This document shows positions 1,665 through 41,879 of a stretch of DNA of 64,000 bases, piece after piece. The notes below the pieces were generated by a model. The model searched no databases. It was given only the letters and a program-made list of their open reading frames with translations, and was not told where the DNA came from. Origin of the DNA: Paraglaciecola sp. L1A13 (GTDB lineage Bacteria > Pseudomonadota > Gammaproteobacteria > Enterobacterales > Alteromonadaceae); assembly GCF_009796745.1 (NCBI RefSeq), contig NZ_CP047024.1:2356001-2420000 (forward strand). Direction: 5' to 3'. How positions within the stretch are numbered: position 1 is the first letter of the stretch; the number at the start of each line of letters is the position of its first letter. The translations under genes were made by a program, and so were the position numbers.

Positions 1665-4600
1665 TTAACTGCTGGTCTGGTCGTCTTGAGTGACCTTGAA
1701 AAAACTGGCGTATAAAACGGGTACTGCACCTAGGGTTAGCACGGTACCGACTGCCAAGCCGAAGGCTATTACGCAGGCCATACCATAAAATAAAGGGTCA
1801 TGACTTAAAATAAGGGGCAGTAAACCTGCCACAGTAGTAATGGTCGTCATGGCAATAGGGCGTACTCGAGTGATACATGCGTTAACGATCGCGTCATAGT
1901 CCGATGCACCTTCGCGACGTTCAATGTCGATACGGTCGATAAGCACGATGGCATTGTTAATAATAATGCCAGCCAAGCTGTATAGCCCTAGCGTTACCAT
2001 AAAGCCAAAAGGCGCAAACATAACGCCTAACCCCAGCACCGCACCAATGAAAGACAAAGGCATGGTGAGCACTATAATGCCAGCACGCCGGAATGAATTA
2101 AACTGCGCAACTAATAGAATAAGAATTAACCCTAATACCATTGGCATACTGGCGCTAAGAGCTTGCTGTGCTTCTGCGGATTGTACAATAACCCCGTCGT
2201 ATTCTATGTAATGATTAAGGGGTAAATCTTGGGCAATTTTTTGTAAGTCTTCATCAATGATGGCTTTTAGATCTTCTGCGGCCATTCGGCTATTACGCGC
2301 CTCGATGCTAACGGTAGGGAACATGTTTTCACGTTGTATAATTGAGTACTGATTAACCGGCGAAAACTCTGCCACTTGAAACAGTGGTATCGCTTTGCCT
2401 GTGGCTTGGGAAAATACATTTAACGAACGTAAGCGATCCAAATTATGTCGCTCAGCGTTACTTGCTCTGAACATAATAGGAATAATGTCATCTTCTTCAC
2501 GAAACTCCGTTACCGCCGCGCCCGAGAAATAAGCTTGCAGTGAGTCAGCGATATCTTGCGAAGTAACAGAGGCGCGCCGTGCTCGTTGTTGGTCAACGCG
2601 AACTTCAATTTTCGCAATCATGCTTTCCCAGTCATTGCGAATATCTCGGGTGTCAGGCACTGCGTAGAGTAAGTCCATTACTTGCTGTGCTTTATTATAA
2701 ATAACGTCCTTGTCAGGTCCTTTCACCTGTATTTTGATGGTTTTTGAATCCGATGGCCCTAAGAACATTTTTTTTGCGCGCACTGATATATTAACAAATT
2801 GCTGCTCAAGTTCTTGATCAAGCTTTATCGCTAGGGCTGTTATATCGTTGTCCGGTGCAATATTGAGTACCATAAATGCTTTGTTTTCAGCGGGGTCTTC
2901 TGGGCTCAGGGACAACACAAAACGCGGACCACTGAAGCCCACATATGCAGTATGATTCTCAATGAAATCGTAGCCAGACTCGTTATCTAACCATTCCATT
3001 ATCGCGTGCATTTGCTCGTTGGTTTGACGTTCAGATGTACCACTGGGCAAATCAATATTAACAATAAGTTGATTACGGTCAGAATCAGGGAAAAACTGCT
3101 TAGGGATAATTTTCATTACCAATACAGATGCAATTAATAAGGCGAATAGTGACGCCATAAAAAGTGCCTTGTGGCGCAAAATAAAGTGTAAAAATCGCTC
3201 ATAACGCCCTGTAACCTTTTTAGATGCTAATGCGTCTGCGCCGCCTTGTGGTTCATCAACTCTGATAAAGTGATAACACAATATAGGCGTAACACACAGA
3301 GCAAGAACCCAACTGGTTAATAAGGTGATAAGAATAACCAGTGACACTGAGCGCGTATATTCCCCAGCCACGTGCTCAGCGAGCATAAGCGGTAAAAAGA
3401 ATAATATGGTGGTCACCGATGAACTAAGTAACGGTATCGCTAGCTCTTTGCCACCTTGACTCATCGCTTTGAAACGATCATCGCCACTTTCTAATCGGCG
3501 CTTAAAATCCTCGGCGATAACGATGCCGTTATCTACCAGTAAACCCAAGGCGATTATCAGTGTCGCCAAGCTCATCCGTTCTAATCGAATGTCGAAGACT
3601 TGCATAATCGTTAAGGTGGCGAGCATCACGAAAGGGACAATCGTGCCGACTATTAAACCGGTACGTATACCTAAAAATAGCACCACTACAATCAATACGA
3701 TGGTGAGAGTTTGCAGTACATTAATTGACACACCTTGCAGCGTTTTCTCTACTTGCTCGGCCTGATAGGTGGCGATATGCAATTGATATCCTACAGGTAA
3801 ACTATTTTCTAATTGCTCAATGGCATGTTTCAGGCGAGGGGCATACTCTAAAATGTTATATTCAGGCAGCATAGAAATGGCAAAAACGATAGCCTGTTGA
3901 CCATTGAAATACGCTAAATCATTGGGAGGGTCTATATAACCACGTTTAAGGGTGGCTATATCACTAAGAGCAATTGATTCTTCGGTACCTGGAATAGTGA
4001 TGTATGTTTCGGCTAAATCTTCAACACTTCTGAAATTTCCAGTAGGCTCGATAATGAAAGACAGTAAGCCAGTATCGATTTGTCCCCCTGAACTGATGAT
4101 ATTCTGAGTCTGCAGTGCATTCATTAATGCATTGGGTGAAATACCCAGTTGAGATAGCTTGGCATTAGATGTTTCTAAGAAAATACGTTCGTCTTGCACC
4201 CCCAGTAATTCTATCTTCTTTGTGCCCTCTACTGCGTACAGGGTATCTCGAGTATGTTTAGATATATCGAACATCTGACTCAAATCGAAACCATCGGCTG
4301 TTAACGCCAAAGTCAGCACCGAAACATCACCGAACTCATCATTTACAAAGGGGGCATTGGTACCCTCTGGCATCGATGCTTGCGCTTGTGCCACCTTGTT
4401 ACGCAGGTTTTGCCAGATGGCATCAAGGTTGAAATACCGGTCGTAGATTTCAACATGAATAACCGACAAGCCGGTAGAAGACGAAGAGCGGAGTTTCTCG
4501 ACTTCAGGAATTTTGCGTATCTCTTCCTCTAACGTTTTGGTAATAAGTAACTCAACCCGCTCAGGCGACATGCCCGGGTAGGATGTACTGACAATAGCCT

Positions 4601-4730
4601 CACGAATGGTAATGCTTGGATCTTCTCGTGCAGGCAATGTGAAGTAAGCGATAATGCCGTTGATAAGGAGTATAGCGACAATCATCAACACGAGTTTTTG
4701 GTGCTTAAAGGCGATCTCTGTAATATTCAT
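1665..4730 (-). CDS. RND-family efflux permease (HAE1/AcrB-like)
   Basis: A 1021-residue inner-membrane proton-driven transporter subunit of the resistance-nodulation-division superfamily. It begins M-N-I-T-E-I-A-F-K-H-Q with a first transmembrane helix at about residues 13-31, then a large periplasmic porter domain. A helix cluster near residues 335-490 contains G-L-L-V-D-N-G-I-V-I, where the Asp matches the TM4 proton-relay residue of the family. A second porter domain and a final helix bundle (about 860-1010) follow. The adaptor gene at 4743-5879 lies immediately upstream with a 12-base gap, so the two form an operon. No outer-membrane channel gene is adjacent; a TolC-like protein is presumably encoded elsewhere. 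Substrate is unknown. Confidence 0.92.
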   Translation of the reverse strand: MNITEIAFKHQKLVLMIVAILLINGIIAYFTLPAREDPSITIREAIVSTSYPGMSPERVELLITKTLEEEIRKIPEVEKLRSSSSTGLSVIHVEIYDRYFNLDAIWQNLRNKVAQAQASMPEGTNAPFVNDEFGDVSVLTLALTADGFDLSQMFDISKHTRDTLYAVEGTKKIELLGVQDERIFLETSNAKLSQLGISPNALMNALQTQNIISSGGQIDTGLLSFIIEPTGNFRSVEDLAETYITIPGTEESIALSDIATLKRGYIDPPNDLAYFNGQQAIVFAISMLPEYNILEYAPRLKHAIEQLENSLPVGYQLHIATYQAEQVEKTLQGVSINVLQTLTIVLIVVVLFLGIRTGLIVGTIVPFVMLATLTIMQVFDIRLERMSLATLIIALGLLVDNGIVIAEDFKRRLESGDDRFKAMSQGGKELAIPLLSSSVTTILFFLPLMLAEHVAGEYTRSVSLVILITLLTSWVLALCVTPILCYHFIRVDEPQGGADALASKKVTGRYERFLHFILRHKALFMASLFALLIASVLVMKIIPKQFFPDSDRNQLIVNIDLPSGTSERQTNEQMHAIMEWLDNESGYDFIENHTAYVGFSGPRFVLSLSPEDPAENKAFMVLNIAPDNDITALAIKLDQELEQQFVNISVRAKKMFLGPSDSKTIKIQVKGPDKDVIYNKAQQVMDLLYAVPDTRDIRNDWESMIAKIEVRVDQQRARRASVTSQDIADSLQAYFSGAAVTEFREEDDIIPIMFRASNAERHNLDRLRSLNVFSQATGKAIPLFQVAEFSPVNQYSIIQRENMFPTVSIEARNSRMAAEDLKAIIDEDLQKIAQDLPLNHYIEYDGVIVQSAEAQQALSASMPMVLGLILILLVAQFNSFRRAGIIVLTMPLSFIGAVLGLGVMFAPFGFMVTLGLYSLAGIIINNAIVLIDRIDIERREGASDYDAIVNACITRVRPIAMTTITTVAGLLPLILSHDPLFYGMACVIAFGLAVGTVLTLGAVPVLYASFFKVTQDDQTSS

Positions 4731-4742
4731 TATGCCCAGCCG

Positions 4743-5879
4743 TTAGTTAAAGCGTTTTATATTGGCATCAAGCAACGTCACGTGTTGGCCGTTACGCAGA
4801 AATGCAACGCCTGCAATGGCAATAATTTCGCCTGCCTTCAAACCCTTAGAAATATACACTTCGTTGCCTAAAATATTTTCAGCAATAACATCTCGTTTAG
4901 ATACAGTTTGGCTAGCTGGATCGTATACAAATACAAACTTAGTTTGATTTTGTCCAGCCCCAAGAGCCGATACAGGAATGATCATCATTTCTTCGGTCGA
5001 GGTTATCTTGCTTTTTTCATCACTATCAGCTTGGCTAGTGTAGGTAATATCAACTTCGGCTGTCATGCCTGCACGTAATAAAGGAGATGAGCCATTTAAC
5101 ACCAAGGTAATAGGGAATGCGTTGGCTGTTTCTGCGCGAGTGCCGACTTCTGTAATAACACCGATTATTTCGACGTTAGGCGCAGCAGGGAAACGCACTG
5201 GGACAGTCATGCCATCAGACAATTGTTGAATTAAACTTTCAGGTACCGATACATGTACTTCAAGCCCACCATGACCTTCGACTTCAAATACACTTTGTCC
5301 AGGCGATATCTGCTGAGATGGTTCAATCATACGCTTGGTAATTACGCCGTCGTAGGGGGCTTGTAACGTACTATCTTGGCGGTCTTTAGTGGCTAGGTCG
5401 AGCTGACTTTTAGCTACGTCAACATTACTTAGTGCTGATTTATAAGCCGCCTCGGCATTATCAAAGCCGGATTTAGAAACCAGACCTTGTTCAACGAGTT
5501 CTTTATAACGACGGTATTCATTTTCAGCTTCATTTAGCGCCGAGCTGGCCTGAGCGTATTTTGCTTGTGCAGATTGATGGTTGAGGGTAAAGCTGCGTTG
5601 ATCTAGGGTCGCTAACACTTGCCCTTGGGTTATTTTCTGCCCTAAGTTAGCTGATACGCTGGCGACTTTACCGCCGACTAAAAAGCTTAACGAGGCTTTT
5701 TCGATGGCCGCCGTTGCACCGGCTAATCTGCGTACCTGTGTTAATGCATGTGCTTTTACTTCGGACCATGCAATAGGGCGCACAATCTCTTTGGCTTCTT
5801 GTTTTTGCTCACTACAAGCTGAGAGTATAAAACTTGAGGCTAATAATCCTGAAGCCAGTAAATACACCGATTTATTCAC
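4743..5879 (-). CDS. RND efflux periplasmic adaptor lipoprotein (membrane fusion protein)
   Basis: A 378-residue adaptor that would link the RND permease to an outer-membrane channel. The N-terminus has a lipoprotein signal with lipobox I-L-S-A-C. A lipoyl half-motif, an alpha-helical hairpin (about residues 95-165), the second lipoyl half with L-Q-A-P-Y-D-G-V-I, a beta-barrel and a C-terminal membrane-proximal domain follow in the usual order. The start is a GTG, chosen because AGGAA lies about six bases upstream and the signal peptide follows directly. It is the first gene of a two-gene operon with the permease. Confidence 0.9.
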   Translation of the reverse strand: MNKSVYLLASGLLASSFILSACSEQKQEAKEIVRPIAWSEVKAHALTQVRRLAGATAAIEKASLSFLVGGKVASVSANLGQKITQGQVLATLDQRSFTLNHQSAQAKYAQASSALNEAENEYRRYKELVEQGLVSKSGFDNAEAAYKSALSNVDVAKSQLDLATKDRQDSTLQAPYDGVITKRMIEPSQQISPGQSVFEVEGHGGLEVHVSVPESLIQQLSDGMTVPVRFPAAPNVEIIGVITEVGTRAETANAFPITLVLNGSSPLLRAGMTAEVDITYTSQADSDEKSKITSTEEMMIIPVSALGAGQNQTKFVFVYDPASQTVSKRDVIAENILGNEVYISKGLKAGEIIAIAGVAFLRNGQHVTLLDANIKRFN

Positions 5880-16697: not shown

Positions 16698-17003
16698 CTA
16701 GTTGTTTTCCCCCCTAGCGGTTGCTACGATAATTTTTAACGCTTCCTCCTTACTAAACCCTGCTTCAACCAATGCATCATAATATTTACGCTGTAGTTGC
16801 GCTTGCGCTTTTATTAAATCTGGATCGCTCATGGCTCTTACTTGATTTTTCATTTGCTCTGCTAATTGGGAATTAACAAAATCTAGCGGGCTGCCCATCT
16901 GCTGGGCTTGGCTGCTAGCTGTAGATAAAGCACAGATTGCGACAAGTGCTACCAATGATGAGACGTGCTTTGGCAGCATGCGTGAATATTTAAAGCTAGG
17001 CAT
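16698..17003 (-). CDS. small secreted protein of unknown function
   Basis: A 101-residue protein not recognised as a known family. A positively charged N-terminus and a hydrophobic core (about residues 15-30) with A-Q-Q after it indicate a Sec signal peptide cleaved near residue 34. The mature part (about 67 residues) looks all-helical and amphipathic, with an F-S-K-E-E-A-L-K-I-I-V-A-T-A segment near the end. It stands alone between convergent and co-directional neighbours. A general resemblance in size and export to the gene at 48644-48940 is noted, but no clear sequence similarity was seen. Confidence 0.7.
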   Translation of the reverse strand: MPSFKYSRMLPKHVSSLVALVAICALSTASSQAQQMGSPLDFVNSQLAEQMKNQVRAMSDPDLIKAQAQLQRKYYDALVEAGFSKEEALKIIVATARGENN

Positions 17004-17435: not shown

Positions 17436-19124
17436 TTAGCGGGTAAGCGTTTTGATTAAATCGCTGTATTGGGGAAACGTACTGACAAGATCTGCTTGTC
17501 TGCCTAGCTGCATATCTTCGTATTCAAACCCTGGCGCAACAGCTTCACCAATTAACCCATAACCGTACTCGCCAGTGGTGGATATCTTCGATGCTTTCCA
17601 TGTACCTCCTTTCACCACCATCTGCATCTCGTGACCCTGAGTTGGGTCAGGTCCTAGAATATGCGTTTCCAGTGTGCCGTCTTGATTTAATAGATAGTAA
17701 GTAATCGGGTCACCTACATGGAAGTAATGCATTATATCTGAACGGTTCATATGGAAATGCCCGATAGGGGATTGTGCGCTGAGCAGGTAATAGATTGATG
17801 TCATATTCACTCGATCGCCATTCTCGGTGCTAATCATCGGGCGGTGGTCGGCTTTAAAGGTTTGACGATAAAAACCACCTTCTACGTGACCTGATAAATT
17901 TAACGATTTGATTAACTCTTCAGCACTTAACTTAGCATCAACAGGTTCAGTGCTCGGGGTTAGCATTTCATTTAGCGTATCTTCATCGGGAGCCACCTTT
18001 GATGCTTCATAGGGTAGAGAATTTTTATAGTTTGCCCAGTTGGTGATAATGTCGTTGACCACAACACTGCCAACGCTATAAGCCGATTCAAGGGCCGATT
18101 GCATGCCGGCGTAACCGTTTTCGCCGCTTTCCAAGGCTAAGTTATTTGCTGCGGTCAAGCTGTCTGGTTGCATAGCGTAATTGCTGGCCGCTCGCAGCAC
18201 CATAAAGCGAGACTTATCGACTTTATTGGCGTTATCAAGATAAATCATCGATTGATAACTGCCAGTATCTTCCATTCCCGAGGTAACAAAGTTTGCTTGA
18301 CCGTTAGTCCAATAATTGGTCCAGTCGTTTGCCCATGCATTTAATAATTTACCATGCCAAAAAGTGGCTGCAGCCATATGATCGCCGATTAACACGAACG
18401 GGCGTTTACGCGCGTTGGGGTAATGAAGGTATTTTTCACGAAGTTCGTACATGGCAGGGTAATCAGTCAAGGGAGTATCTTTACTTAGCTCATACGCCCA
18501 CTTTGTGAGTTTGGTATTGAGCTGATAAGCTTCGCCATTCATCGCTTGTACTGGTTTCTCTGTGCGCTCGGTAGGTTTTACGCTAAACAAGGGAAAGTAG
18601 CCGCTTTTCCAGTCTTGTGGGATTTCTCGGGCGTCAATTTCGTGGGCTAGGTCACCATCGACTAGCCAGTTTGCCCACACTGCTGAACCAATTGATGCAT
18701 CTTGTGGGTCGACTCCGGCAATACCTGCAACTAACCAATAAGCGTGCGTTAAATCAAAGCGGGGATCTAAGCCTAAGGCCATAATCGCTGAAGCAGCTTT
18801 AGCCGTTCCCATACCGGTCACTATGCCCATTACGCCGGTTTCTTTGTTGACGTAGATATCATGGTGAGACATGGGGAATGCGTAGCGGGTATCAAGGTTT
18901 TGGCCTTCTTTCCACATTTGGAATTCACCAGGTTTATCATCGTCGTCTTCACCGATTTCGAACATGGTGACCACCACCACTTTGATCTCAAGTGGCGCTT
19001 CTTGTTCAGTAGCCATTTGTTTGGCATCTGCTAAGGAAGGCGTATTTTGACAGGCACTAATAAAAAAGCTTGAAAGAATGAGGGCGCCAAGTGGCAGTAT
19101 AGATTTACGTATAGTTGATAGCAT
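17436..19124 (-). CDS. lipoprotein fusing a purine nucleoside permease (NUP) domain to a Cupin_5 (DUF985) domain
   Basis: A 562-residue exported protein with a lipoprotein signal (lipobox I-S-A-C, Cys25). Residues about 46-395 match the NUP family: V-V-V-V-T-M-F-E-I-G-E-D at the start, G-I-V-T-G-M-G-T-A-K-A-A and A-G-I-A-G-V-D-P. Residues about 400-550 match Cupin_5/DUF985: E-G-G-F-Y-R-Q-T-F, T-S-I-Y-Y-L-L, H-F-H-M-N-R-S-D-I-M-H-Y-F-H, G-G-T-W-K-A-S and A-P-G-F-E-Y-E-D. NUP is named after a fungal purine nucleoside transporter, but its fold is related to nucleoside phosphorylases, so a substrate-binding or cleaving role at the membrane surface is more likely than transport. The gene begins about 17 bases after a strong terminator that follows the TonB receptor. 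No good ribosome-binding site is visible. Confidence 0.82.
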   Translation of the reverse strand: MLSTIRKSILPLGALILSSFFISACQNTPSLADAKQMATEQEAPLEIKVVVVTMFEIGEDDDDKPGEFQMWKEGQNLDTRYAFPMSHHDIYVNKETGVMGIVTGMGTAKAASAIMALGLDPRFDLTHAYWLVAGIAGVDPQDASIGSAVWANWLVDGDLAHEIDAREIPQDWKSGYFPLFSVKPTERTEKPVQAMNGEAYQLNTKLTKWAYELSKDTPLTDYPAMYELREKYLHYPNARKRPFVLIGDHMAAATFWHGKLLNAWANDWTNYWTNGQANFVTSGMEDTGSYQSMIYLDNANKVDKSRFMVLRAASNYAMQPDSLTAANNLALESGENGYAGMQSALESAYSVGSVVVNDIITNWANYKNSLPYEASKVAPDEDTLNEMLTPSTEPVDAKLSAEELIKSLNLSGHVEGGFYRQTFKADHRPMISTENGDRVNMTSIYYLLSAQSPIGHFHMNRSDIMHYFHVGDPITYYLLNQDGTLETHILGPDPTQGHEMQMVVKGGTWKASKISTTGEYGYGLIGEAVAPGFEYEDMQLGRQADLVSTFPQYSDLIKTLTR

Positions 19125-19141
19125 AATAAAAACCGTTATAT

Positions 19142-19173
19142 AAAAAAACAGGCATGCTATTTAGCATACCTGT
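19142..19173 (-). terminator. strong terminator between TonB receptor and NUP-cupin genes
   Basis: Read on the minus strand: a 12-base stem with one G-U pair (plus-strand arms 19148-19159 and 19162-19173), a two-base loop, then seven T. The T-run ends only about 17 bases before the ATG of the NUP-cupin gene, leaving no room for a separate promoter between them. It probably attenuates read-through from the receptor gene. Confidence 0.85.
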
Positions 19174-19210
19174 CTGTTGGAATAAATCACTTATAAAAGA
19201 TTACATGTGA

Positions 19211-21619
19211 TTAGAACTTATAAGCTACCGACGCTTGATAATGACGTGGTAACTCGGGTAACACAATTTGTGCACCAAACAAATCAGGGAAGTTGGCACG
19301 GTAGTACTCTTCATCTGTTAAGTTTTTAATATTAAAGCTTGCTGACCATGTATCGGTTGTATATGACACGCCGGCATTGACCAATGTGTAAGCAGGGAGT
19401 TGAACCGATTGGGAGAAACTAGAATAAGTTTCGTCCGCTCGCACTATACTGGCGTTAGCGGCGTATCCGTTTAAGAAGTCGTATGTTGCGTTTAAGGTAT
19501 AAATGTTTTCTGGAATACCAGCCTTACGTGCATCATCTTTTGTTGCGCCTTCTGGCAGCAAAGTTAACCCTATTGGGTTACCACCAAAGATTAATGATGG
19601 GTCAGTTAAGCTAGTTAAGTCTTCAGCACCAAGGAAACCAAACTGACTACCTTCATCTAATGCCGTTAAGTTATATACATTTAGGTGGGTGTAACCCGCA
19701 CCTAAAACAAGTTGATCGGTCGCTACCCAGCGTAATTCAAATTCAACACCTTCATTTTGCGTAGTTGAGTTGGTCACGATGGCTTGTGCGCTAAAATCAG
19801 TTCGTTTTTGTTCGTACACTGATAAGGCGAAATACAAACTGTCGTCAAGGAAAGAACCTTTTACACCATATTCAAACAATTCAGATGTATCAAACGCACC
19901 GTCTTGAAGTTGGCCTACACCAATTTCAGCACCTTGACCTGCAACGATCGTTGCTTGCTCGGCAGCAGTAATATATGGAATTAAGCCAAATTCAGTTTTG
20001 TAAGAAATACTGGTGTTCCACGATGTGCCGCTTTCGGTTTTGCTCAAGGTCACAATATCTCCTTTTTCGAGGAGCAAATCACCGCGGCTAGTGGTTTCAA
20101 TATCGATTGAGTCGTAACGCAAACCTAGTACTATGTTCAGGCCCCAATCCCAGGTTAAATCGGTTAATGCAGCAATACCGTAGTCAGTATAATTACCTTT
20201 GTCGTAGTTATCGTAGTTGTCGTTAATACGAGTAGCCATTTCACGTCTATCCAAAGCGCTTGACGCCATGGTTAGATCGCGACGATTGAAGTATTCGTAA
20301 GTGAAGTCGTCTCCGTGTAAGAAATTAGTATGACGAATTGACGGTGACACTTGAAATTGGGCTAACAAAGAATTGGTTTCATATTCAGTAGAAAATATTA
20401 ATTTATTTTCAACTACTGAGCTATTGTGAAATTGCGAGAAACCATAAGCGTTTTCATTTAAGTTTTCATAATCTTCATAGAAGAATTGGTTTTTGATTTC
20501 CCAACCGCTATCACTGTAATAAATTGCGTCAAAATACAGTGTTTGAACGGTATTTTGTAGAACGTCATCGGCGGCTACTAATACTTGGTTACGACCTAGT
20601 GTAGTTGTGCCAACGTTTTCTAGTTGCATCAAGTCAGTGGCTTCATCATCGGTGAAACCAGGAGCAAACGGATAGAAAAAGCTATTACCCGCTAAGTTTA
20701 CAGCACCATATTCAGCGTGAGAAATCGCGCCGCTACCGTCTGCATCAATATTTTTAGCAGTACCTGTTATATAGGTGCCATTATCGATCAAGTCTTGGGT
20801 TAAGCGGTTCCAACCAGCGACTTGGTTGCCATCGTAATCGTGGTACATACCGCCAAATTCGAAGCGTAAATTGTCAGTTACGTCAATATTGAACGAGCCT
20901 TGTAATACCGTCTGGTCCGTTCCGCTGTTGTCATAATAACTGCCTGAGTTTTCAACTTCACCGTATAGATAGAAGCCTGCTTCTTTGCCGGCTAGTGTTG
21001 CAGGGCCGCCAATTTCGGCTGTCATCACGCTCTTATCCCATGAACCCAAGGTGTATGAAAACTTACCTTCATTCTGTTCAAGATATTGGCCGCCACTTGC
21101 GCGAGCAGATTTAGGATTGAAGTTTAAGTAACCGCCAATTTTAGCGGGGCCATATATTGGAGATGCAGGTCCACGCACTATATCGATGCGGCTTGATGCG
21201 CCAATCGGCGTAGGGTAGTTACCTGGATTATCTAGGCGTTTAACTCCACGAAAATAAGTTTCGCCGGGTGTACCACGGACATCTAATGAACCGGCAACGC
21301 CGAAGAATGATTGTGTGAACGTACCAGGTGAAAATGCAACTAAGTCATCGATATCGGTTACCGCAAAACGTTCCAGCATCTCGTCACTGATCGTTGACGC
21401 TGAGCGCGGCGTTTCTAAAATTGACTTACCAAAGCCGAAAACGGCTTCTACGCCTTGGCCTGGTAAACTGCCGAGTGATCCCGTTACTTCAATTCGCTCC
21501 AATGCCGCGGTTTCTTCACTGGCGGTCTCTTGTGCCAATATCGTGGGTGATAGCGTCATCGCTAACCCTAATAGAACAGCATTACTCAAGGTCGAGCTTT
21601 TAAATAAGGGATGGTTCAT
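19211..21619 (-). CDS. TonB-dependent outer-membrane receptor, probably for a purine compound
   Basis: An 802-residue receptor with a signal peptide cleaved near residue 29 (T-I-L-A-Q). The plug domain (about residues 60-170) contains L-E-T-P-R-S-A-S-T-I-S, D-V-R-G-T-P-G-E-T-Y-F-R-G and R-I-D-I-V-R-G-P-A-S-P-I-Y-G, typical of siderophore-type receptors. The 22-stranded barrel follows and the protein ends S-V-A-Y-K-F. An EF-hand-like calcium loop D-A-D-G-S-G-A-I-S-H-A-E is at residues 292-303, in an extracellular loop of the barrel. GAGGAA lies seven bases before the ATG. The purine substrate is inferred only from neighbours (NUP-cupin, deaminase, NCS2 permease); the sequence alone would also allow a siderophore. 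Confidence 0.85.
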   Translation of the reverse strand: MNHPLFKSSTLSNAVLLGLAMTLSPTILAQETASEETAALERIEVTGSLGSLPGQGVEAVFGFGKSILETPRSASTISDEMLERFAVTDIDDLVAFSPGTFTQSFFGVAGSLDVRGTPGETYFRGVKRLDNPGNYPTPIGASSRIDIVRGPASPIYGPAKIGGYLNFNPKSARASGGQYLEQNEGKFSYTLGSWDKSVMTAEIGGPATLAGKEAGFYLYGEVENSGSYYDNSGTDQTVLQGSFNIDVTDNLRFEFGGMYHDYDGNQVAGWNRLTQDLIDNGTYITGTAKNIDADGSGAISHAEYGAVNLAGNSFFYPFAPGFTDDEATDLMQLENVGTTTLGRNQVLVAADDVLQNTVQTLYFDAIYYSDSGWEIKNQFFYEDYENLNENAYGFSQFHNSSVVENKLIFSTEYETNSLLAQFQVSPSIRHTNFLHGDDFTYEYFNRRDLTMASSALDRREMATRINDNYDNYDKGNYTDYGIAALTDLTWDWGLNIVLGLRYDSIDIETTSRGDLLLEKGDIVTLSKTESGTSWNTSISYKTEFGLIPYITAAEQATIVAGQGAEIGVGQLQDGAFDTSELFEYGVKGSFLDDSLYFALSVYEQKRTDFSAQAIVTNSTTQNEGVEFELRWVATDQLVLGAGYTHLNVYNLTALDEGSQFGFLGAEDLTSLTDPSLIFGGNPIGLTLLPEGATKDDARKAGIPENIYTLNATYDFLNGYAANASIVRADETYSSFSQSVQLPAYTLVNAGVSYTTDTWSASFNIKNLTDEEYYRANFPDLFGAQIVLPELPRHYQASVAYKF

Positions 21620-21692
21620 CAGTATTCCTCTAACTATTTTCTTATGTGTGGTTATTTATGTGTGGTGTTTATTCGTGTTACTGACGGGGTAA

Positions 21693-21710
21693 AAGCATGA
21701 AGAGTGCCAA
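21693..21710 (-). promoter_or_regulatory. sigma-54-like -24/-12 promoter element upstream of TonB receptor
   Basis: On the minus strand the sequence TTGGCACTCTTCATGCTT carries GG and GC separated by exactly ten bases, the invariant spacing of sigma-54 promoters, and TGGCAC matches the -24 box. The -12 box is ATGC instead of TTGC. The predicted start would be near 21683, giving a leader of about 64 bases to the ATG at 21619. A RutR-type palindrome lies directly upstream. Confidence 0.45.
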
Positions 21711-21714
21711 AGAC

Positions 21715-21730
21715 TTGTCCAAATGGTCAA
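21715..21730. promoter_or_regulatory. RutR-type operator (TTGTCCAAATGGTCAA)
   Basis: Matches the published E. coli RutR box TTGACCA-NN-TGGTCAA at 13 of 14 defined positions. It lies about 95 bases before the TonB receptor start and next to the sigma-54-like element. A second copy is at 25257-25272. A RutR-family (TetR) regulator is not encoded in the window. Confidence 0.6.
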
Positions 21731-21936
21731 GAAATTAGTCTAATGCGTAAGGGTATGATTTATAAGTGGAATATTTAATTTTTAGTGAGATGGTGACAAT
21801 AAATTCGATTTTCATAAAAATTTGAATTAACTAGCTGCACCAAAATAAATCAAAAAATGCGCCATTGCACCTAAACATGACTTAAGGGTCCATGAAATAA
21901 ATGGTTAATTTATTTCACGAACCCCACCAAGTTCGC

Positions 21937-23328
21937 TTATATCGATGCTAATTGCAGCTTTTTGGCTAATTTTTGATGCTCTATTATTAGCTCATCCTCA
22001 TCGATGGCATAGTGTTTACCGCCTTCGATAACCCATTTACCGGCTACCATCAATTTATCAACGGTATGGGCTCCGCATGTGACGACAGCGGCGATGGGGT
22101 CTCCGGCTCCTGAAAAGCGCAGAGCATTTAAATCAAATATTGCTAAATCAGCCTGCTTGCCGATGGCAATTTCACCTATGTCTGTTCTATTAAGCAATGA
22201 TGCAGACCCCTTAGTGGCAAGACCTAAAACATATTCAGCAGTTATATCGACAGCACCGTAGCGCAATCGTTGTTGCAACAACGATTGGCGCGCCTCTTGG
22301 ATCATGTTGGAGCAATCGTTTGACGCAGAGCCGTCGACCCCTAAACCGACCCGGCAACCTGCGTTTACCAAATCCAATGTTGGGCAAATGCCCGATGCCA
22401 ATAACATATTAGAGCTGGGACAGTGGGCAATACCAACGTTTGCTTGCCCTAAGCGAGCAATTTCTTGTGGGGTAAAATGGATACCATGTGCTAACCACGT
22501 TCGATCGCCCAACCAGCCACATTGCTCTAGGTAGTCTAAGGGGCGGGCACCATATATACGTTGGCAAAAAGCATTCTCGTCTTCGGTTTCAGCCAAATGC
22601 GTGTGCAGTAGTACGTCATTTTTGTTGGCTAATAGGGCGGTTTGTTGCATTAATTCTTTTGATACAGAAAAAGGCGAACAGGGTGCTAAGGCAATTTGTA
22701 ACATGGGGCTAGGGTGACTAAGTGTTGATTGATGATAGGCACTTATGACGCGTTGTGAGTCTACCAGTATCGTATCTTCGCTTTGTATAACTGAATCTGG
22801 CGGTAATCCACCTTTGCTTTGGCCCAAACTCATGGAGCCTCTAGTAATTAGAGCTCGGCAGTTTAACTCGGCAATTGCTTGCACTTGAACATCAATGGCA
22901 TGACTTAAACGTTTGGGAAATACATAATGATGATCACCAATTGTGGTGCAACCAGACATCATAAGCTCTAGTCCCGCTAGTTTGGTTGCGCTATAGAGCA
23001 TTTCTTCATCAAGGTTTTTCCACACTTTGTATAGGAAGGTTAACCAAGGAAATAGTGGCTTATTCATCGCTCCTGGTACGCAGCGCGTCAGGGTCTGGTA
23101 AAAGTGGTGATGGGTATTAATCATGCCTGGCAGAATCACTTTACCTGTGCAGTTTTCGATTGCGTCGAACGGTAATTTCGGGTTTTCACCGCTTTTAACC
23201 AATTCGATAATGTGACTATTTTGTACCAGCACGCCATTATCTGCATTTTGGGTGTTACCGGTGAAAACACCTTCTGGAGATTTAAGCCAAAGTGTGGGGG
23301 CGTTTTTTTTAAGGGCTTGGGGTTGCAT
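21937..23328 (-). CDS. amidohydrolase, 8-oxoguanine/guanine-type deaminase
   Basis: A 463-residue cytosolic metal-dependent deaminase of the amidohydrolase superfamily (COG0402). Metal-site motifs are in order: N-T-H-H-H-F-Y-Q-T-L-T-R (residues about 71-82), L-L-H-T-H-L-A-E-T-E-D-E, H-C-P-S-S-N-M-L-L-A-S-G and G-V-D-G-S-A-S-N-D. The H-H-H-F-Y-Q-T-L-T-R segment and the S-A-S-N-D segment are like those of the 8-oxoguanine deaminases (Pseudomonas PA0142 type) that turn 8-oxoguanine into uric acid. Related hydroxyatrazine hydrolases and guanine deaminases cannot be excluded. It lies between the TonB receptor and the NCS2 permease on the same strand, which supports a purine-base role and release of ammonia. 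Confidence 0.82.
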   Translation of the reverse strand: MQPQALKKNAPTLWLKSPEGVFTGNTQNADNGVLVQNSHIIELVKSGENPKLPFDAIENCTGKVILPGMINTHHHFYQTLTRCVPGAMNKPLFPWLTFLYKVWKNLDEEMLYSATKLAGLELMMSGCTTIGDHHYVFPKRLSHAIDVQVQAIAELNCRALITRGSMSLGQSKGGLPPDSVIQSEDTILVDSQRVISAYHQSTLSHPSPMLQIALAPCSPFSVSKELMQQTALLANKNDVLLHTHLAETEDENAFCQRIYGARPLDYLEQCGWLGDRTWLAHGIHFTPQEIARLGQANVGIAHCPSSNMLLASGICPTLDLVNAGCRVGLGVDGSASNDCSNMIQEARQSLLQQRLRYGAVDITAEYVLGLATKGSASLLNRTDIGEIAIGKQADLAIFDLNALRFSGAGDPIAAVVTCGAHTVDKLMVAGKWVIEGGKHYAIDEDELIIEHQKLAKKLQLASI

Positions 23329-23456
23329 TTATTCTTGCTCTTCGGTGGTAGTTTGAACGTTGTCTTTTTGACCAATTCTTAATTAGCTCGGTAAAGGTTA
23401 TGGTGTATCGGGTTACCCGTATATTCGCTTTAAATATAGAACTAGCTCATTAAGAA

Positions 23457-24911
23457 TTAACTTTCTCTTAAGGCCTTAGAGGCAATAACGTTGGGGCTAG
23501 ACATACTAGGCAGATGTTTATCAGTCGCCAGATTTATCGAGGAGACCTCTTCTTCTGCAGGGGCATCGACTGGCGTATTATCAGGGATTAAAATACTCAT
23601 AGTGATCGCGCAAAAGCCAGCAGTGGTCACTGATGATGACAAAATATTATTAACTAATTGCGGTAGCTGTGCCAAAGCGTCGGGTACCATCATAACCCCT
23701 AGGCCTAGACCTAACGAGGTGGCAATAATCAAGCTTTTTCGCCTATCAATAGGTTCGCTAGTTAGAATTTTAACACCTGCAACAGCGATAGTGGCAAACA
23801 TGACTAAGGTTGCACCTCCTAGGACAGGCTTGGGCATCAATTGCAATACGCTACCAATAATAGGGAATAATCCCAGTAACACTAATAAGCCAGCAATGTA
23901 GAGACCCACATGACGACTTGCCACCCCGGTCATTTGAATCACGGCGTTGTTTTGACCGAAAGTGGTGTTTGGAAAACTATTGAATACCGCGGCTAACATT
24001 GAGTTGATGCCATCTGCTAATATTCCGCCTTTTATACGATTAATATATACAGGTCCTTTGATGGGCTCCTTGCAAAATAAGCTGTTGGCGGTTAAATCAC
24101 CCGATGTCTCGATGGCGCTAAGGAAGTAGACCAGCGCAATGGGAATGAAAAGCTCCCAATCAAATGCAATTCCGTACTTAAAAGGCTCTGGAATACTAAT
24201 TAGTGGCAATGACACCATATCATCAAAAGACAGAATACCTTGCCACCACGCAATGATACAGCCAACCAACATGCCACAGAATATGGCGCTTAAACGCAGC
24301 ATCGGGAACTTAGATGCGTTTAAGGCAATCACTGTAACCAATACACTTAGGCCTAGCATAAGATTATGCGGCGCACCAAAATCGGGGGCGTTAAACCCAC
24401 CTGAAAGATCAGTCATACCCACTTTGATAAGCGTAATGCCGATTGTAGTGATAACTATTCCCGTAGTCAGGGGGGTAATAACGGCCTTAAGGTGTTGAAT
24501 AAATTGGCTTATGATTATTTCTACGAACGCTCCGAAAAAGCATAATCCGAACATCAAGGCCATAATTTCATCGTTGCTGCCGCCCCTGCTTTTTATTGCA
24601 GTACCGGCCACCAGAAGGGCGCTAATAAAGGTGAAACTGGTCCCTTGAACGGCAATAAGTCCACAGCCTATAGGGCCAAATTTTTTCGCTTGAATAAAGG
24701 TGGAAACACCAGACGTCATCAAGGCCATACTGATTAAATAGGGGATTTCTGCCTGCAGGCCCAGTACTGAACCAATGATCAAGGTCGGCGTAATGATGCC
24801 AATAAAGCAGGCCATAATGTGTTGCAGTGCCGCGGTTATGCTATGGCTTATTGAAGGCACATCGTTAAGTGAATACAGTATTTCATTATTTTGTGGACGA
24901 GCGTCAAGCAT
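23457..24911 (-). CDS. NCS2-family nucleobase:cation symporter (uracil-xanthine permease group)
   Basis: A 484-residue inner-membrane transporter with about 14 hydrophobic segments. The NCS2 signature in TM10 reads F-G-Q-N-N-A-V-I-Q-M-T-G-V-A-S-R-H-V-G (residues about 318-336), the xanthine/urate type, with Ala323 at a position that is normally Gly. The TM8 substrate motif is A-I-E-T-S-G-D. The likely substrates are xanthine, urate, guanine or 8-oxoguanine. It is the first gene of the minus-strand purine locus, with the deaminase 128 bases downstream. The C-terminal tail (about 45 residues) is polar. Confidence 0.88.
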   Translation of the reverse strand: MLDARPQNNEILYSLNDVPSISHSITAALQHIMACFIGIITPTLIIGSVLGLQAEIPYLISMALMTSGVSTFIQAKKFGPIGCGLIAVQGTSFTFISALLVAGTAIKSRGGSNDEIMALMFGLCFFGAFVEIIISQFIQHLKAVITPLTTGIVITTIGITLIKVGMTDLSGGFNAPDFGAPHNLMLGLSVLVTVIALNASKFPMLRLSAIFCGMLVGCIIAWWQGILSFDDMVSLPLISIPEPFKYGIAFDWELFIPIALVYFLSAIETSGDLTANSLFCKEPIKGPVYINRIKGGILADGINSMLAAVFNSFPNTTFGQNNAVIQMTGVASRHVGLYIAGLLVLLGLFPIIGSVLQLMPKPVLGGATLVMFATIAVAGVKILTSEPIDRRKSLIIATSLGLGLGVMMVPDALAQLPQLVNNILSSSVTTAGFCAITMSILIPDNTPVDAPAEEEVSSINLATDKHLPSMSSPNVIASKALRES

Positions 24912-25501
24912 GGGTAACCCTATAAAGTTGTGTTACATAAAATTGTCGAATTGCGAAGCGCATTGCCACACTTGTTAAACCGTAACCGTCAAGATTCTAC
25001 TGTTGATTGTTGTCCATAGATAAAACACTAAATACCTCTTTAATGACTTTATAATCAGCTTTGCATTTAAGGGCTTCGAACCAGTGGGTATTTAGTTTAC
25101 CGTTGGGCTAGCCAAAGCGTGCAAACGTCAGAAGAATGTTCTGGTTGCAAGTAAAAACAATGCCGACCGCTTTATGCAATGCCCAGGGCGAATATATGTA
25201 TCTGTAAAGCAGGTTGAGCTAAGTCCAACCAAGGTTGTTGGCTATAAAGCAATTATTTGACCAAATGGTCAGTTGAGATAAAATTGGTAACTCATTGAAT
25301 TTATGCATTAAAATTAAATATATTTAAAAGTGATGAATAGCTTAAATATATTTTGCTCCTTAATGGTGCATAAAATGTTTGTTTTGGACCAAGTCTATCT
25401 AACGGATATGGCTTTGAGCTAAAGTTGGGTTTACATATCGCACCTTGATTAAAAATTGATGAAGTTCATTATTAATATTGGATATATTTCAGGAGTAAAG
25501 T
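24912..25501. promoter_or_regulatory. 590-base divergent regulatory region between NCS2 permease and sulfurtransferase
   Basis: No gene seen. The region is dense in palindromes: a RutR-type box (25257-25272), an AT-rich perfect palindrome TTAAATATATTTAA (25314-25327) with a near copy TTAAATATATTTT at 25342-25354, and an enclosing inverted repeat TTTATGCA/TGCATAAA (25300-25307, 25367-25374). A TTGG-A-CCAA odd palindrome lies near 25384. Which gene each site controls is not clear. Confidence 0.5.
25257..25272. promoter_or_regulatory. RutR-type operator (TTGACCAAATGGTCAG)
   Basis: Matches the E. coli RutR box TTGACCA-NN-TGGTCAA at 13 of 14 defined positions; only the last base differs. It lies in the divergent region, 346 bases before the NCS2 permease start and 230 bases before the sulfurtransferase start. 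It shares the core CCAAATGG with the box at 21715-21730. Confidence 0.6.
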
Positions 25502-26344
25502 ATGCAAAACAGCAGTGCACTTGTTAGCCCATTTTGGCTTAACCAACATATTGATGATGCTAATTTAGTGGTGTTTATGAGCACCATGAATGTGATTACT
25601 ACAGGCGAACCAGAGGCCCCTCCATCAGGCTATATACCAGGCGCTCAATTGTTCGATTTTGAGCATCAAGTTTGTGATAAGACAAGCGGGTTACCCCACA
25701 CCATGCCAAGCCCTGAAGTATTCCAACAAGAGGTACGTAAATTAGGCGTAAATAACGATAGCGTGATAGTGATATATGATAACCAAGGCGTGTTCAGTGC
25801 GCCTCGTGTATGGTGGATCTTCAAATGCATGGGGCACAAGCACGTATATGTGCTAAATGGCGGTTACCCAGCGTGGCAAGAAAACGGGTTTACAAGTGAT
25901 GTATGTCTATCAAAGGCAACCTCACTAGGGGGCTTTACGAGTAATTTTAGAGCTGATTTAATAGTCGATTCAGAGCAGGTTTTAGCGGCACTTAGCACAA
26001 CAGATAAAAAAGTTATTGATGCTCGCTCTCCTGAGCGATTTTTTGGCAAAGTTGCGGAGCCGCGTGCTCATTTGCGTTCGGGACATATGCCTAGTGCCTG
26101 TAATCTGCCATTTAACCAATGTATCGATAATGGACAGTTAATAAATAACTCGGCGTTACGCAGCAAATTCGAAGCATTAACGATAAGCACTAAACAAACA
26201 CTGATTTTTAGCTGCGGATCGGGTGTTACTGCCTGCGTGTTAGCGCTAGCGGCCCATGAGGCTGGATATGAAAACCTAAGTGTTTATGATGGTTCATGGA
26301 GTGAATGGGGAGCTGATGAAAGCTTGCCTGTAGTGACCGATTAA
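25502..26344 (+). CDS. sseA: 3-mercaptopyruvate/thiosulfate sulfurtransferase (rhodanese)
   Basis: A 280-residue cytosolic tandem-rhodanese enzyme, the same size as E. coli SseA. The N-terminal inactive rhodanese domain contains P-G-A-Q-L-F-D-F and R-V-W-W-I-F-K. The C-terminal active domain has D-A-R-S-P-E-R-F-F-G and the active-site loop C-G-S-G-V-T-A, the 3-mercaptopyruvate type (thiosulfate enzymes usually have C-R-K/R-G-V-T). AGGAG sits six to seven bases before the ATG. It moves sulfane sulfur from mercaptopyruvate to thiol acceptors or cyanide. It is divergent from the purine locus and no functional tie is evident. Confidence 0.88.
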   Translation: MQNSSALVSPFWLNQHIDDANLVVFMSTMNVITTGEPEAPPSGYIPGAQLFDFEHQVCDKTSGLPHTMPSPEVFQQEVRKLGVNNDSVIVIYDNQGVFSAPRVWWIFKCMGHKHVYVLNGGYPAWQENGFTSDVCLSKATSLGGFTSNFRADLIVDSEQVLAALSTTDKKVIDARSPERFFGKVAEPRAHLRSGHMPSACNLPFNQCIDNGQLINNSALRSKFEALTISTKQTLIFSCGSGVTACVLALAAHEAGYENLSVYDGSWSEWGADESLPVVTD

Positions 26345-39769: not shown

Positions 39770-40330
39770 CTAATGCATTCTCGGTTTGGTTAAGTGTTGG
39801 ATAACCTGTTGATTTAACGCTGCTAAGTTGTGTGAGCTACGACTTGTGTAAAGCCCCTTATCTATCACCAGATCTCGGTCTACAAGCTTGGCACCTGCAT
39901 AGCGCAGTCTATTGAGCACCGTAGGGAAGGAAGCCACCAGTCGGTTTTTAAGTACGTCTGCTTCTAGCAACATCCATGTACCTTGATTGATGGCTACTAC
40001 AGGTTTAATCTCAGCGTCCTTAAAGAATCCTTTAACGAAATCGATGGCGTCTTTATCTTGCAACAATGCATCGGGGTTAAATAAACCACCGGGTAGAATG
40101 AGTGCGTCATATTCCTCAGCGGAAACATTCGAAACTATTTTATCGACATCAACTTCTATACCCCATTTACTGCCATTCCAGCCTATGATGGTGCCTGGCT
40201 CCAAAGAGACAATATGAACGTTTACTCCAGCACTGATAAGCGCATCGCGGGTTTCAATGAGCTCACATTGTTCGAATCCATCCTTGGCTAATATGGCGGC
40301 AGTTTTATTACTTGATAACGTGTTTAACAT
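39770..40330 (-). CDS. DJ-1/PfpI-family protein with substituted nucleophile site
   Basis: A 186-residue protein of the DJ-1/PfpI superfamily, YhbO/PfpI-like in its core: A-I-L-A-K-D-G-F-E-Q-C-E-L near the start, D-A-L-I-L-P-G-G in the middle, then K-P-V-V-A-I-N-Q-G-T-W. In active members this last segment is A-I-C-H-G, so the nucleophile Cys and the neighbouring His are replaced by Asn115 and Gln116. The start is placed at the ATG at 40330 because AGGAG lies about eight bases upstream; a longer frame to 40396 has no such signal. The protein is probably not a classical protease/deglycase and may bind or sense a ligand. Confidence 0.8.
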   Translation of the reverse strand: MLNTLSSNKTAAILAKDGFEQCELIETRDALISAGVNVHIVSLEPGTIIGWNGSKWGIEVDVDKIVSNVSAEEYDALILPGGLFNPDALLQDKDAIDFVKGFFKDAEIKPVVAINQGTWMLLEADVLKNRLVASFPTVLNRLRYAGAKLVDRDLVIDKGLYTSRSSHNLAALNQQVIQHLTKPRMH

Positions 40331-40958
40331 GCTTTGCTCCTGCTTTTGCATTCGTGCTTTTTGGGACGTAAATATGAATAAAGACAACAAATGCATCTAA
40401 ATTAGAATATGCAATTATTAAACCAGTATTTTTTTGCTGTCCTGGTTAATAGCGCAAATACGTTAGCTATTGATTTAACTATATAATGTTAGTTTGTTAC
40501 CTAAGTTAGACCGGATTTATGTCAGTTAGTTTTCAAATAATATAGGAAATATGTGTAAATTTGGTCGCAGGAATTAGGCAATATTGTCACGAATATTTAC
40601 AGCAAAATTGCCTTAAGGTAGTTAAAGTTACCTAAAGCCGAATTTTTAATACTTTTAATTGGTTAATAACTTTCCCAGTACTGTTTTTCCAACAATGTTG
40701 ATATTCAAACTTACGCTGTGGGTTTATCCCCAAGCTCAGTTAGCCTGCTAATAGCTATTAAATAGTGTCTGTATAAAGGGATTAAGTTAATCTGGGCTGG
40801 ATAAAAGAAAATGCCTAAATCTGAGCCTAATGATGTGCTAATTATATTACGCCGATAGAATAGAGTAACCGTAGATATACGTCGGTACTTGAGATGCGGC
40901 GTCTGCTCATATGCATTTTCTCAAAAACATGACATTTACACTTAGGATAACGACGCAC
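40331..40958. other. long spacer between PfpI-like and EamA genes
   Basis: About 630 bases without a supported gene. It is AT-rich and must hold the divergent promoters of both neighbours. An imperfect inverted repeat (TTAAGGTA and TACCTAA, near 40613-40635) is the only structure noticed. In-frame upstream Met codons for the EamA gene exist at 40911 and 40929 but lack ribosome-binding sites. Confidence 0.4.
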
Positions 40959-41879
40959 ATGCGCAGTACTGTTTTATACATGATCACCGTGCTTATTTGG
41001 GGCTCAACTTGGTTAGCAATTGAATTTCAATTAGGTGATATCCCAGCACAAGTCTCATTAGTTTACCGCTTCGCAATTGCAGCCATTTTAATGTGGGCAT
41101 ACTGTATATTCAAACGCCTAGATATGCGGTTTGTTTGGAGTGATCATTGTTTTTTCTTAATATTAGCGGTATGTAATTTTGGAGGAAATTATCTGATCCT
41201 CTATTGGGCTCAAAATTACCTTACATCTGCGATGGCATCTATCGCTTTTTCAACTTTGTTGTTGATGAACATTATTAATACGCGAATATTTTTCGGTCGG
41301 GTAATTGCAAAACGTATCTATGTTGGAGCTGGATTGGGTGTAATTGGTTTAGGCGCGTTGTTTTGGCCTGATATCAAAAGCCTCGATTTTGCCAGCGATG
41401 CCATGCTCGGATTAGGCTTAGCGTTAGGGGGAACATTTATGGCTTCGTTGGGCAACATGGCCAGTGTACGTAATTCAGCTTGTAAGATAGGTGTAATGCA
41501 GGGCAACGCCTGGGGAATGTTATACGGTGCCTTAGCGCTAATTTGCGTCGTGCTCTTTACTGGTGTCGAATTTAAATTCTCAATGAAACCGAGCTATGTA
41601 TTGTCGTTAATTTATCTTGCTCTGTTTGGCACTGTTATCGCTTTTGCATGTTATTTCGTATTGCTACGGGATATAGGCCCAGAAAAGGCCAGTTATTCGA
41701 TAGTGTTATTCCCGTTTGTGGCCGTTGCGCTCAGTACCTTATATGAAGGATTTGAATGGCATATTAATACCGTACTGGGGTTTGTATTAGTTATCATCGG
41801 TAATGCCATCGTGCTGACGCCCATGGCTCAAATTCGACATTGGTTTCTGCATCGAAAGCAGCGAAAAGACGTATCGTGA
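40959..41879 (+). CDS. EamA-family (DMT) membrane transporter, YedA-like exporter
   Basis: A ten-helix drug/metabolite transporter with two EamA repeats. The start chosen gives 306 residues beginning M-R-S-T-V-L-Y-M-I-T-V-L-I-W-G-S-T-W, the usual family opening, with AGGA eleven bases upstream; starts at 40911 or 40929 would add up to 16 residues. Repeat one contains I-Y-V-G-A-G-L-G-V-I-G-L, repeat two contains G-P-E-K-A-S-Y-S-I-V-L-F-P, matching the S-x-x-x-x-x-x-P-V/F segment of this family. Substrate unknown; amino acids or metabolites are typical. Confidence 0.85.
   Translation: MRSTVLYMITVLIWGSTWLAIEFQLGDIPAQVSLVYRFAIAAILMWAYCIFKRLDMRFVWSDHCFFLILAVCNFGGNYLILYWAQNYLTSAMASIAFSTLLLMNIINTRIFFGRVIAKRIYVGAGLGVIGLGALFWPDIKSLDFASDAMLGLGLALGGTFMASLGNMASVRNSACKIGVMQGNAWGMLYGALALICVVLFTGVEFKFSMKPSYVLSLIYLALFGTVIAFACYFVLLRDIGPEKASYSIVLFPFVAVALSTLYEGFEWHINTVLGFVLVIIGNAIVLTPMAQIRHWFLHRKQRKDVS

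Follow-up and report, generated by a model that had tools for sequence, protein, structure and literature searches.

The stretch of DNA described here (the window) spans 64 kb, at positions 2356001-2420000 of the single-contig, 4.97-Mb genome of Paraglaciecola sp. L1A13. It carries a row of four minus-strand genes, encoding a nucleobase symporter, a deaminase, a TonB-dependent receptor and a lipoprotein in which a NUP domain is fused to a cupin. These genes quite probably belong to a pathway in which purine nucleosides are brought in by the TonB-dependent receptor, cleaved in the periplasm and fed into nitrogen release. The locus would serve as the front end of purine scavenging, at the outer membrane and in the periplasm. 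The receptor would import purine nucleosides, possibly bases too, into the periplasm, and the NUP domain would hydrolyse 6-oxopurine nucleosides (inosine, guanosine and possibly 8-oxoguanosine) to the base and ribose. An exported adenosine-deaminase-like protein, encoded elsewhere in the genome, would turn adenosine into inosine, and the fused cupin may assist, perhaps through purine binding. The base would be carried over the inner membrane by the NCS2 symporter, and nitrogen would be freed by the deaminase together with a xanthine-dehydrogenase/urate/allantoin cluster. A RutR-like TetR protein of the purine cluster would repress the locus via TTGACCANNTGGTCAA operators, the identity of this repressor and its ligand both being presumptive. 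Gene families, a predicted fold, neighbourhood conservation, conserved palindromes and co-occurrence were computed.

A first-pass annotation had reported four co-directional open reading frames (ORFs) of these families; all four were recovered where it had placed them, and the family calls hold. The permease (23457..24911, minus strand) is a xanthine-permease-like NCS2 nucleobase:cation symporter of the inner membrane. It scores 347.7 bits with the NCS2 superfamily model TIGR00801, above the cut-off of 291.8, and 405.0 bits with the xanthine permease model TIGR03173, marginally below the cut-off of 414.15. The deaminase (21937..23328, minus strand) is an amidohydrolase whose best PDB sequence match is 7ww2; no signal peptide was seen by eye, and it is placed in the cytoplasm. 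With 642.4 bits against NF006055 (cut-off 532), it falls by curated cut-off into the 8-oxoguanine deaminase family and is predicted to act on 8-oxoguanine. The receptor (19211..21619, minus strand), with its Plug and TonB barrel domains, is proposed to bind purine nucleosides or bases. The fusion protein (17436..19124, minus strand) has 562 amino acids and, as read from its sequence, a lipobox ISAC that ends at Cys25. Its NUP part matches PF06516 with 378.8 bits (gathering score 27) and its Cupin_5 (DUF985) part, at 17505..17921 on the minus strand, matches PF06172 with 144.7 bits (gathering score 25).

The NUP domain (18015..18986, minus strand) is predicted from a structural model, Foldseek and alignments to have the fold of the methylthioadenosine/S-adenosylhomocysteine (MTA/AdoHcy) nucleosidase, MTAN. 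In the model (mf0ec7d19e78b), 27 of the first 36 ten-residue blocks reach a predicted local distance difference test (pLDDT) value of at least 85. The best 50 Foldseek matches were MTA/AdoHcy nucleosidases and a futalosine hydrolase, and 3bl6 was matched with an E value of 3.1e-10, a probability of 1.00 and a TMt of 0.75. NUP3, a paralogue at genome position 1981225, matches PNP_UDP_1 (PF01048) with 32.8, above the cut-off of 25.1; it also has the motif AEMEGVAI in common with the MTAN of the genome, which it matches in BLAST at E 0.004. The NUP of the window itself gave no PF01048 match at E 0.001, and its score of 22.6 with the futalosine hydrolase model is far below the cut-off of 124.7. 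When the profiles of NUP and MTAN were compared, they matched only in part (E 0.009, probability 4.5), and the NUP alignment, used as a profile against PDB sequences, found nothing. As these sequence-profile matches are partial or absent, the evidence for the fold comes from the NUP model and the Pfam match of NUP3. Since the model has a nucleosidase fold, PF06516 'NUP' appears to be a periplasmic nucleoside-cleaving enzyme and not a permease; the candidate role of a membrane permease was rejected on this predicted MTAN-type enzyme fold. A second MTAN-like protein of the same genome (L217:1480-2679) has 400 amino acids and an N-terminal extension that resembles an export signal.

Residues E56, M284-E285, R311 and N315 of NUP (precursor numbering) are invariant in alignments of 17 and of 51 sequences. 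Read by eye from the motifs, they fall at the Glu, the Met-Glu, the Arg and the catalytic Asp of MTAN. The Glu, Met-Glu and Asp of MTAN have known roles in catalysis, and 6-oxopurine-specific purine nucleoside phosphorylase (PNP) uses Asn at the place of the catalytic Asp. The Asn of NUP therefore suggests 6-oxopurine nucleosides as substrates. Inspection by eye shows no clear Arg for phosphate binding, and N315 is like the Asn of 6-oxopurine PNP; NUP is therefore proposed to hydrolyse inosine and guanosine, with hydrolysis, rather than phosphorolysis, and base specificity both presumed. NUP is similar to MTAN, futalosine hydrolase and the PNP superfamily in its predicted fold, its Met-Glu motif and its R..S-[DN] motif; unlike MTAN, it has Asn for the catalytic Asp and is exported.

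There are 68 TonB-barrel matches in the genome, 67 of them above cut-off, so that the receptor per se is unremarkable and it is its conserved company that stands out. This company was followed in 246 genomes of the family, with the drawback for the proposed pathway that genomes within a genus do not count as independent samples. When the search began from NUP, 34 of the 246 genomes, besides the own genome, had a long NUP1-type match of at least 55% identity, and a further genome, G189, had a partial match at a contig end. In 32 of these 34, all but G225 and G065, the stretch around NUP, at most 20 kb long, also contained the receptor. When it began from the receptor, 39 of the 246 genomes matched at E <= 1e-100, and 38 remained once G050, at 41% identity, was set aside. 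The first-pass annotation had named a receptor beside unrelated genes in most relatives as a finding that would speak against it. On this genomic count the claim stands, for in 33 of the 38 genomes a NUP gene lay no more than 0.5 kb from the receptor orthologue. Since no other receptor of the own genome matches at E <= 1e-100, a chance neighbourhood is unlikely. A wider set of named NUP loci, the best 80 of at least 552 and not a random sample, gave a receptor homologue (>400 bits, 44-90% identity) in 61 loci; in 49 of these, receptor and NUP share a strand and are no more than 1 kb apart. Without the 6 Paraglaciecola loci, the homologue was present in 56 of 74.

The receptor is also accompanied by purine catabolism at the level of the genome. 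The large subunit of xanthine dehydrogenase (XDH, E <= 1e-150) was found in 38/38 receptor genomes, as against 58/208 of the others (Fisher 1e-18); by genus, the figure is 11/11 within 29/52 (p 0.0006). The opposite holds for Tsx, which allows nucleosides to pass the outer membrane. This passive channel is anti-correlated with the receptor in the family sample: PF03502 above cut-off was present in 0/38 receptor genomes and in 71/208 others (p 9e-7), and at E <= 0.001 in 2/38 and 79/208 (p 2e-5). Many of the Tsx matches are weak, and not every one need be a nucleoside channel. Genera g18, g30 and g38 hold both kinds of genome.

Two near-identical palindromes, noticed on reading the upstream sequences, lie before the receptor and the permease. 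The first, TTGTCCAAATGGTCAA (21715..21730), is 96-111 bp upstream of the receptor start, and the second, TTGACCAAATGGTCAG (25257..25272), is 346-361 bp upstream of the permease start. Each has one mismatch to TTGACCANNTGGTCAA, which we take to be the RutR-type operator consensus, from E. coli. Within the window alone, matches at <=3 mismatches were not above shuffles. In the whole genome only 4 places have <=1 mismatch, and 2 of them are in this locus; the other two precede udk with a NupC-type nucleoside transporter, and an exported protein with CBM and Endonuclease_1 domains. Of the places with <=2 mismatches, one precedes a second NUP with the exported adenosine-deaminase (ADA)-like protein, another an ExeM-like LTD protein and a third a TonB-type receptor with an EEP protein. 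Summed over 13 genomes of the genus, 51 places had <=1 mismatch, compared with 19 for the control. Among 17 such genus loci (L199-L215), udk-NupC stood beside the site in 5, one of which also had the second receptor. The remaining loci had the second receptor (2), an ExeM-like match (2, one of them to an internal part only), the permease (1), receptor/deaminase (1) or nothing labelled (6).

A footprint was then taken over loci L069-L102 and L106-L108 and the window, with 350 bp upstream of each gene, <=2 mismatches and 200 permuted control palindromes. A site preceded the receptor in 18 of 35 cases (controls: mean 0.03, maximum 1), the 35 ORFs including three tandem copies of one genome and one 32% paralogue. 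Sites were likewise present before xdhA (7/8), TetR (9/13, mostly shared with xdhA), the exported ADA (9/16), the permease (7/23), NCS2b (6/20) and ADA337 (6/13). Some of these are double counts, as xdhA/TetR and NCS2b/ADA337 share divergent regions, and related genomes are not independent. The internal genes had no site within the same limits: NUP 0/34, deaminase 0/12 and puuE 0/11. Over all gene classes, the control means were 0.01-0.04 and the maximum was 2. The permease site of the window, at 346-361 bp, escaped the 350-bp cut. The shared palindrome, the company of NUP and the co-occurrence with XDH, and not with Tsx, give independent support to the joint purine function that the first-pass annotation had put forward.

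As regards the regulator, the genome has two TetR proteins of PF08362. The first adjoins genes that resemble rutA-F by eye, and the second sits between puuE and xdhA in the xanthine/urate/allantoin cluster. Both neighbourhoods have, in the own genome, a palindrome at 3 mismatches. The TetR of the purine cluster is below both RutR cut-offs (188.2 < 368 for TIGR03613, and 163.1 < 230). It is the likely regulator of the locus, with the rut-side TetR as the alternative. The arrangement resembles the RutR pyrimidine-utilisation regulon in operator type, as we take the consensus to be, and in the TetR C-terminal family PF08362. It differs in that the purine-cluster TetR misses the RutR cut-offs and that the rutA-F-like genes have a TetR of their own. 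In the purine cluster, XdhA, UraD, GuaD, PuuE and ADA pass NCBIfam cut-offs, as does the NupC of the genome, and PuuD is recognised by Pfam Urate_ox_N. XdhB, XdhC and the purine permease NCS2b of the cluster were labelled by eye, NCS2b having no NCBIfam match at 1e-15. The earlier mechanism of energised capture at the outer membrane followed by deamination is supported and can be sharpened to a proposed TonB-fed cleavage of nucleosides in the periplasm, under a regulator of the purine cluster. The wider system (the exported ADA-like protein, XDH and the RutR-like regulator) extends outside the window.

Several points weigh against the proposed pathway. In five of the 38 receptor genomes (G038, G105, G024, G225 and G065), the 0.5 kb on either side of the receptor contain no NUP gene. 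In G038, NUP genes lie within 6 kb of the receptor, inside the purine cluster; in G105 and G024 the receptor adjoins purine permeases, and in G225 it adjoins genes that by eye resemble those of allantoate/ureidoglycine metabolism. The receptor of G065 has the palindrome but no labelled purine neighbour. At <=2 mismatches 17 of the 35 receptors are without a site; allowing three gives one in 8 of them and none in 9. In this genome the 4 places at <=1 mismatch are to be set against 2 for the reversed pattern, and the 36 places at <=2 mismatches, against 32, are near chance. Which two-mismatch places count as members was decided post hoc, and since that list is near its control, it was not used alone as evidence. 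The exported ADA-like protein is below the curated adenosine-deaminase cut-offs, though above that of Pfam A_deaminase. The specificity read from the Asp-to-Asn change in NUP depends on the reading of motifs and on general enzymology, and the model of the cupin domain is poor (pLDDT 28-70 by block). As for the receptor, its ligand, a purine nucleoside or base, is presumed, for fold and model point to no particular ligand. The closest solved folds to its model (mb3ff2b4669df; mean pLDDT 79.4, predicted template modelling score 0.81) are the siderophore receptors FoxA, PiuA and FpvA, with PqqU also listed.

These folds, together with the fact that the best NCBIfam model is the siderophore model TIGR01783, would fit an iron or siderophore receptor that stands beside purine genes by accident. 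The score with this model is, however, 128 bits against a cut-off of 223.5, and the heme and B12 models are likewise below cut-off. In a test by pattern only, the best Fur-box match in the receptor promoter covered 12/19 positions, where shuffles averaged 11.76, which gives no sign of iron control above chance. An iron receptor was therefore downgraded, and with the palindrome of the purine cluster and the conserved company of NUP also against it, it is now very improbable. A purine-metal complex, which the first-pass annotation had allowed as a ligand, found no support. The receptor also has an EF-hand-like calcium loop, NIDADGSGAISHAE (residues 290-303; 20711..20752, minus strand), in which D292, G297 and E303 are invariant in all 41 aligned receptors. 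In an Alteromonadaceae genome (L086, the same as named locus L126), three tandem receptor copies of 63-66% identity stand ahead of NUP. In the same-genus genome G004 (L078/L117, contig C49), the receptor gene is in two pieces about 14 kb apart, at 24362-26005 and 40185-40988, as if an insertion had interrupted it.

Another possibility, which we regard as unlikely, is that the receptor imports larger material than nucleosides, namely nucleotides or oligonucleotides derived from nucleic acid outside the cell, and that periplasmic nucleases and phosphatases act before ADA and NUP. It draws on the palindromes with 1-2 mismatches that also precede the exported Endonuclease_1 protein, the ExeM-like LTD protein (whose EEP match is just below cut-off), the EEP protein behind the second receptor, and udk-NupC; some of these sites recur within the genus. 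Against it, the family loci show no labelled nuclease next to the receptor, though the reference set had few such proteins, and the substrates of the conserved partners are nucleosides and bases. The second TonB-type receptor (1009 amino acids, OMP_b-brl_4) and the EEP-family protein are found in the own genome at L017:5307-8336 and 4051-5235, behind a related palindrome and next to udk-NupC. This second receptor is possibly one for nucleotides or nucleic acid.

It is equally doubtful that the receptor takes free or oxidised bases (guanine, xanthine or 8-oxoguanine), with NUP serving a separate nucleoside stream. In such a case 8-oxoguanine would be deaminated straight to urate, the known product of its deamination. 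The base permease does adjoin the deaminase, and the latter passes the 8-oxoguanine deaminase cut-off even though a guanine deaminase above cut-off is also encoded in the genome. But a deaminase was labelled in only 21 of the 80 named NUP loci, where the same count gave the receptor in 57, and outside Alteromonadaceae the deaminases are mostly of about 40-45% identity or less. The import of purine nucleosides, with cleavage by NUP, thus stays the preferred account.

The cupin of the fusion protein has 1yud, 3m3i, 1xe7, 3loi and 1znp as PDB sequence relatives, and a DUF985 structure with bound GDP reportedly exists. Among the 246 family genomes, the full-length NUP-cupin fusion is restricted to the own genus (12/12 genomes matched). 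Elsewhere there are separate genes and, in G088 of another genus, a truncated form (L080:9327-10604) in which the NUP gene ends within the first few dozen cupin residues; the fusion as a general feature was rejected on these grounds. A separate cupin match of at least 52% identity was found in 16 genomes outside the own genus, and its surroundings were viewed in 6. In L106, L107 and L108 it is lipoprotein-like and adjoins ADA/puuE/TetR/xdh genes, and in L102 it comes directly after the NUP gene, with no visible signal peptide. The cupins of L104 and L105 are lipoprotein-like too, with no purine gene labelled in the vicinity. Among the named loci, L145, L147 and L175 have a cupin near puuE. The surface exposure that the first-pass annotation had ascribed to the NUP-cupin protein is backed by nothing, and several NUP orthologues without a lipobox resemble, by eye, soluble periplasmic proteins.

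The four genes need not form a single transcript. The receptor is preceded by a gap of 317 bp that contains its own operator-like palindrome, and between receptor and NUP there is a terminator-like hairpin of 13 pairs with a T-tail (19146..19175, minus strand), from a scan that gave 7 hairpins overall against a shuffle mean of 8.1 and is thus not above chance. A single four-gene operon was rejected because of this second palindrome and hairpin inside the row, and two predicted units, permease-deaminase and receptor-NUP/cupin, fit better. A known regulatory RNA at the locus was also rejected, as no Rfam match reached the gathering threshold. At 16698-17003 of the window, a protein of 101 amino acids has a signal-like N-terminus and matches no family; it is conserved next to the locus in several genomes of the genus.

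A TonB receptor within a catabolic regulon is an already known kind of system, here met with purines. TonB-dependent transporters have been placed within the HutC (histidine) and HypR (hydroxyproline) catabolic regulons, where the receptor is likewise predicted to feed the catabolism of a nitrogen compound via a shared operator; the substrate is what differs (PMC5343134). The main text of that paper places RutR under pyrimidine catabolism and does not contain the words 'xanthine' and 'nucleobase'. Purine cross-feeding among ocean bacteria has been described in PMC11698098, the main text of which does not contain 'outer membrane'. In searches of open-licence papers, at the top of long result lists, no published description of such a system was found, and there is a moderate chance that the locus is the first clear TonB system for purine nucleosides.

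A further likeness is to the rus ribose/nucleoside locus of Bacteroides thetaiotaomicron, which also joins TonB-type outer-membrane uptake with nucleoside cleavage. It differs in being of the SusC/SusD type and centred on ribose, and it is not known to be coupled to purine catabolism. A wider claim has an even chance of being right: that a dedicated and widely conserved TonB purine nucleoside receptor replaces Tsx, that the misnamed 'NUP' is a periplasmic 6-oxopurine nucleosidase and that DUF985 cupins are its partners for purine handling in the periplasm. The pair of receptor and cleaving enzyme recurs in other proteobacteria. If the proposed account of the locus is true, a substrate class could be assigned to a receptor subfamily present in Alteromonadaceae, Sphingomonadales and other lineages. 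PF06516 would be re-labelled as an enzyme, the uncharacterised DUF985 cupins would gain a testable context, and purine scavenging would gain genetic markers for metagenomes.

Elsewhere in the own genome, at L024:6726-7596, overlapping ORFs on both strands are built of a repeated unit, in a tandem repeat.

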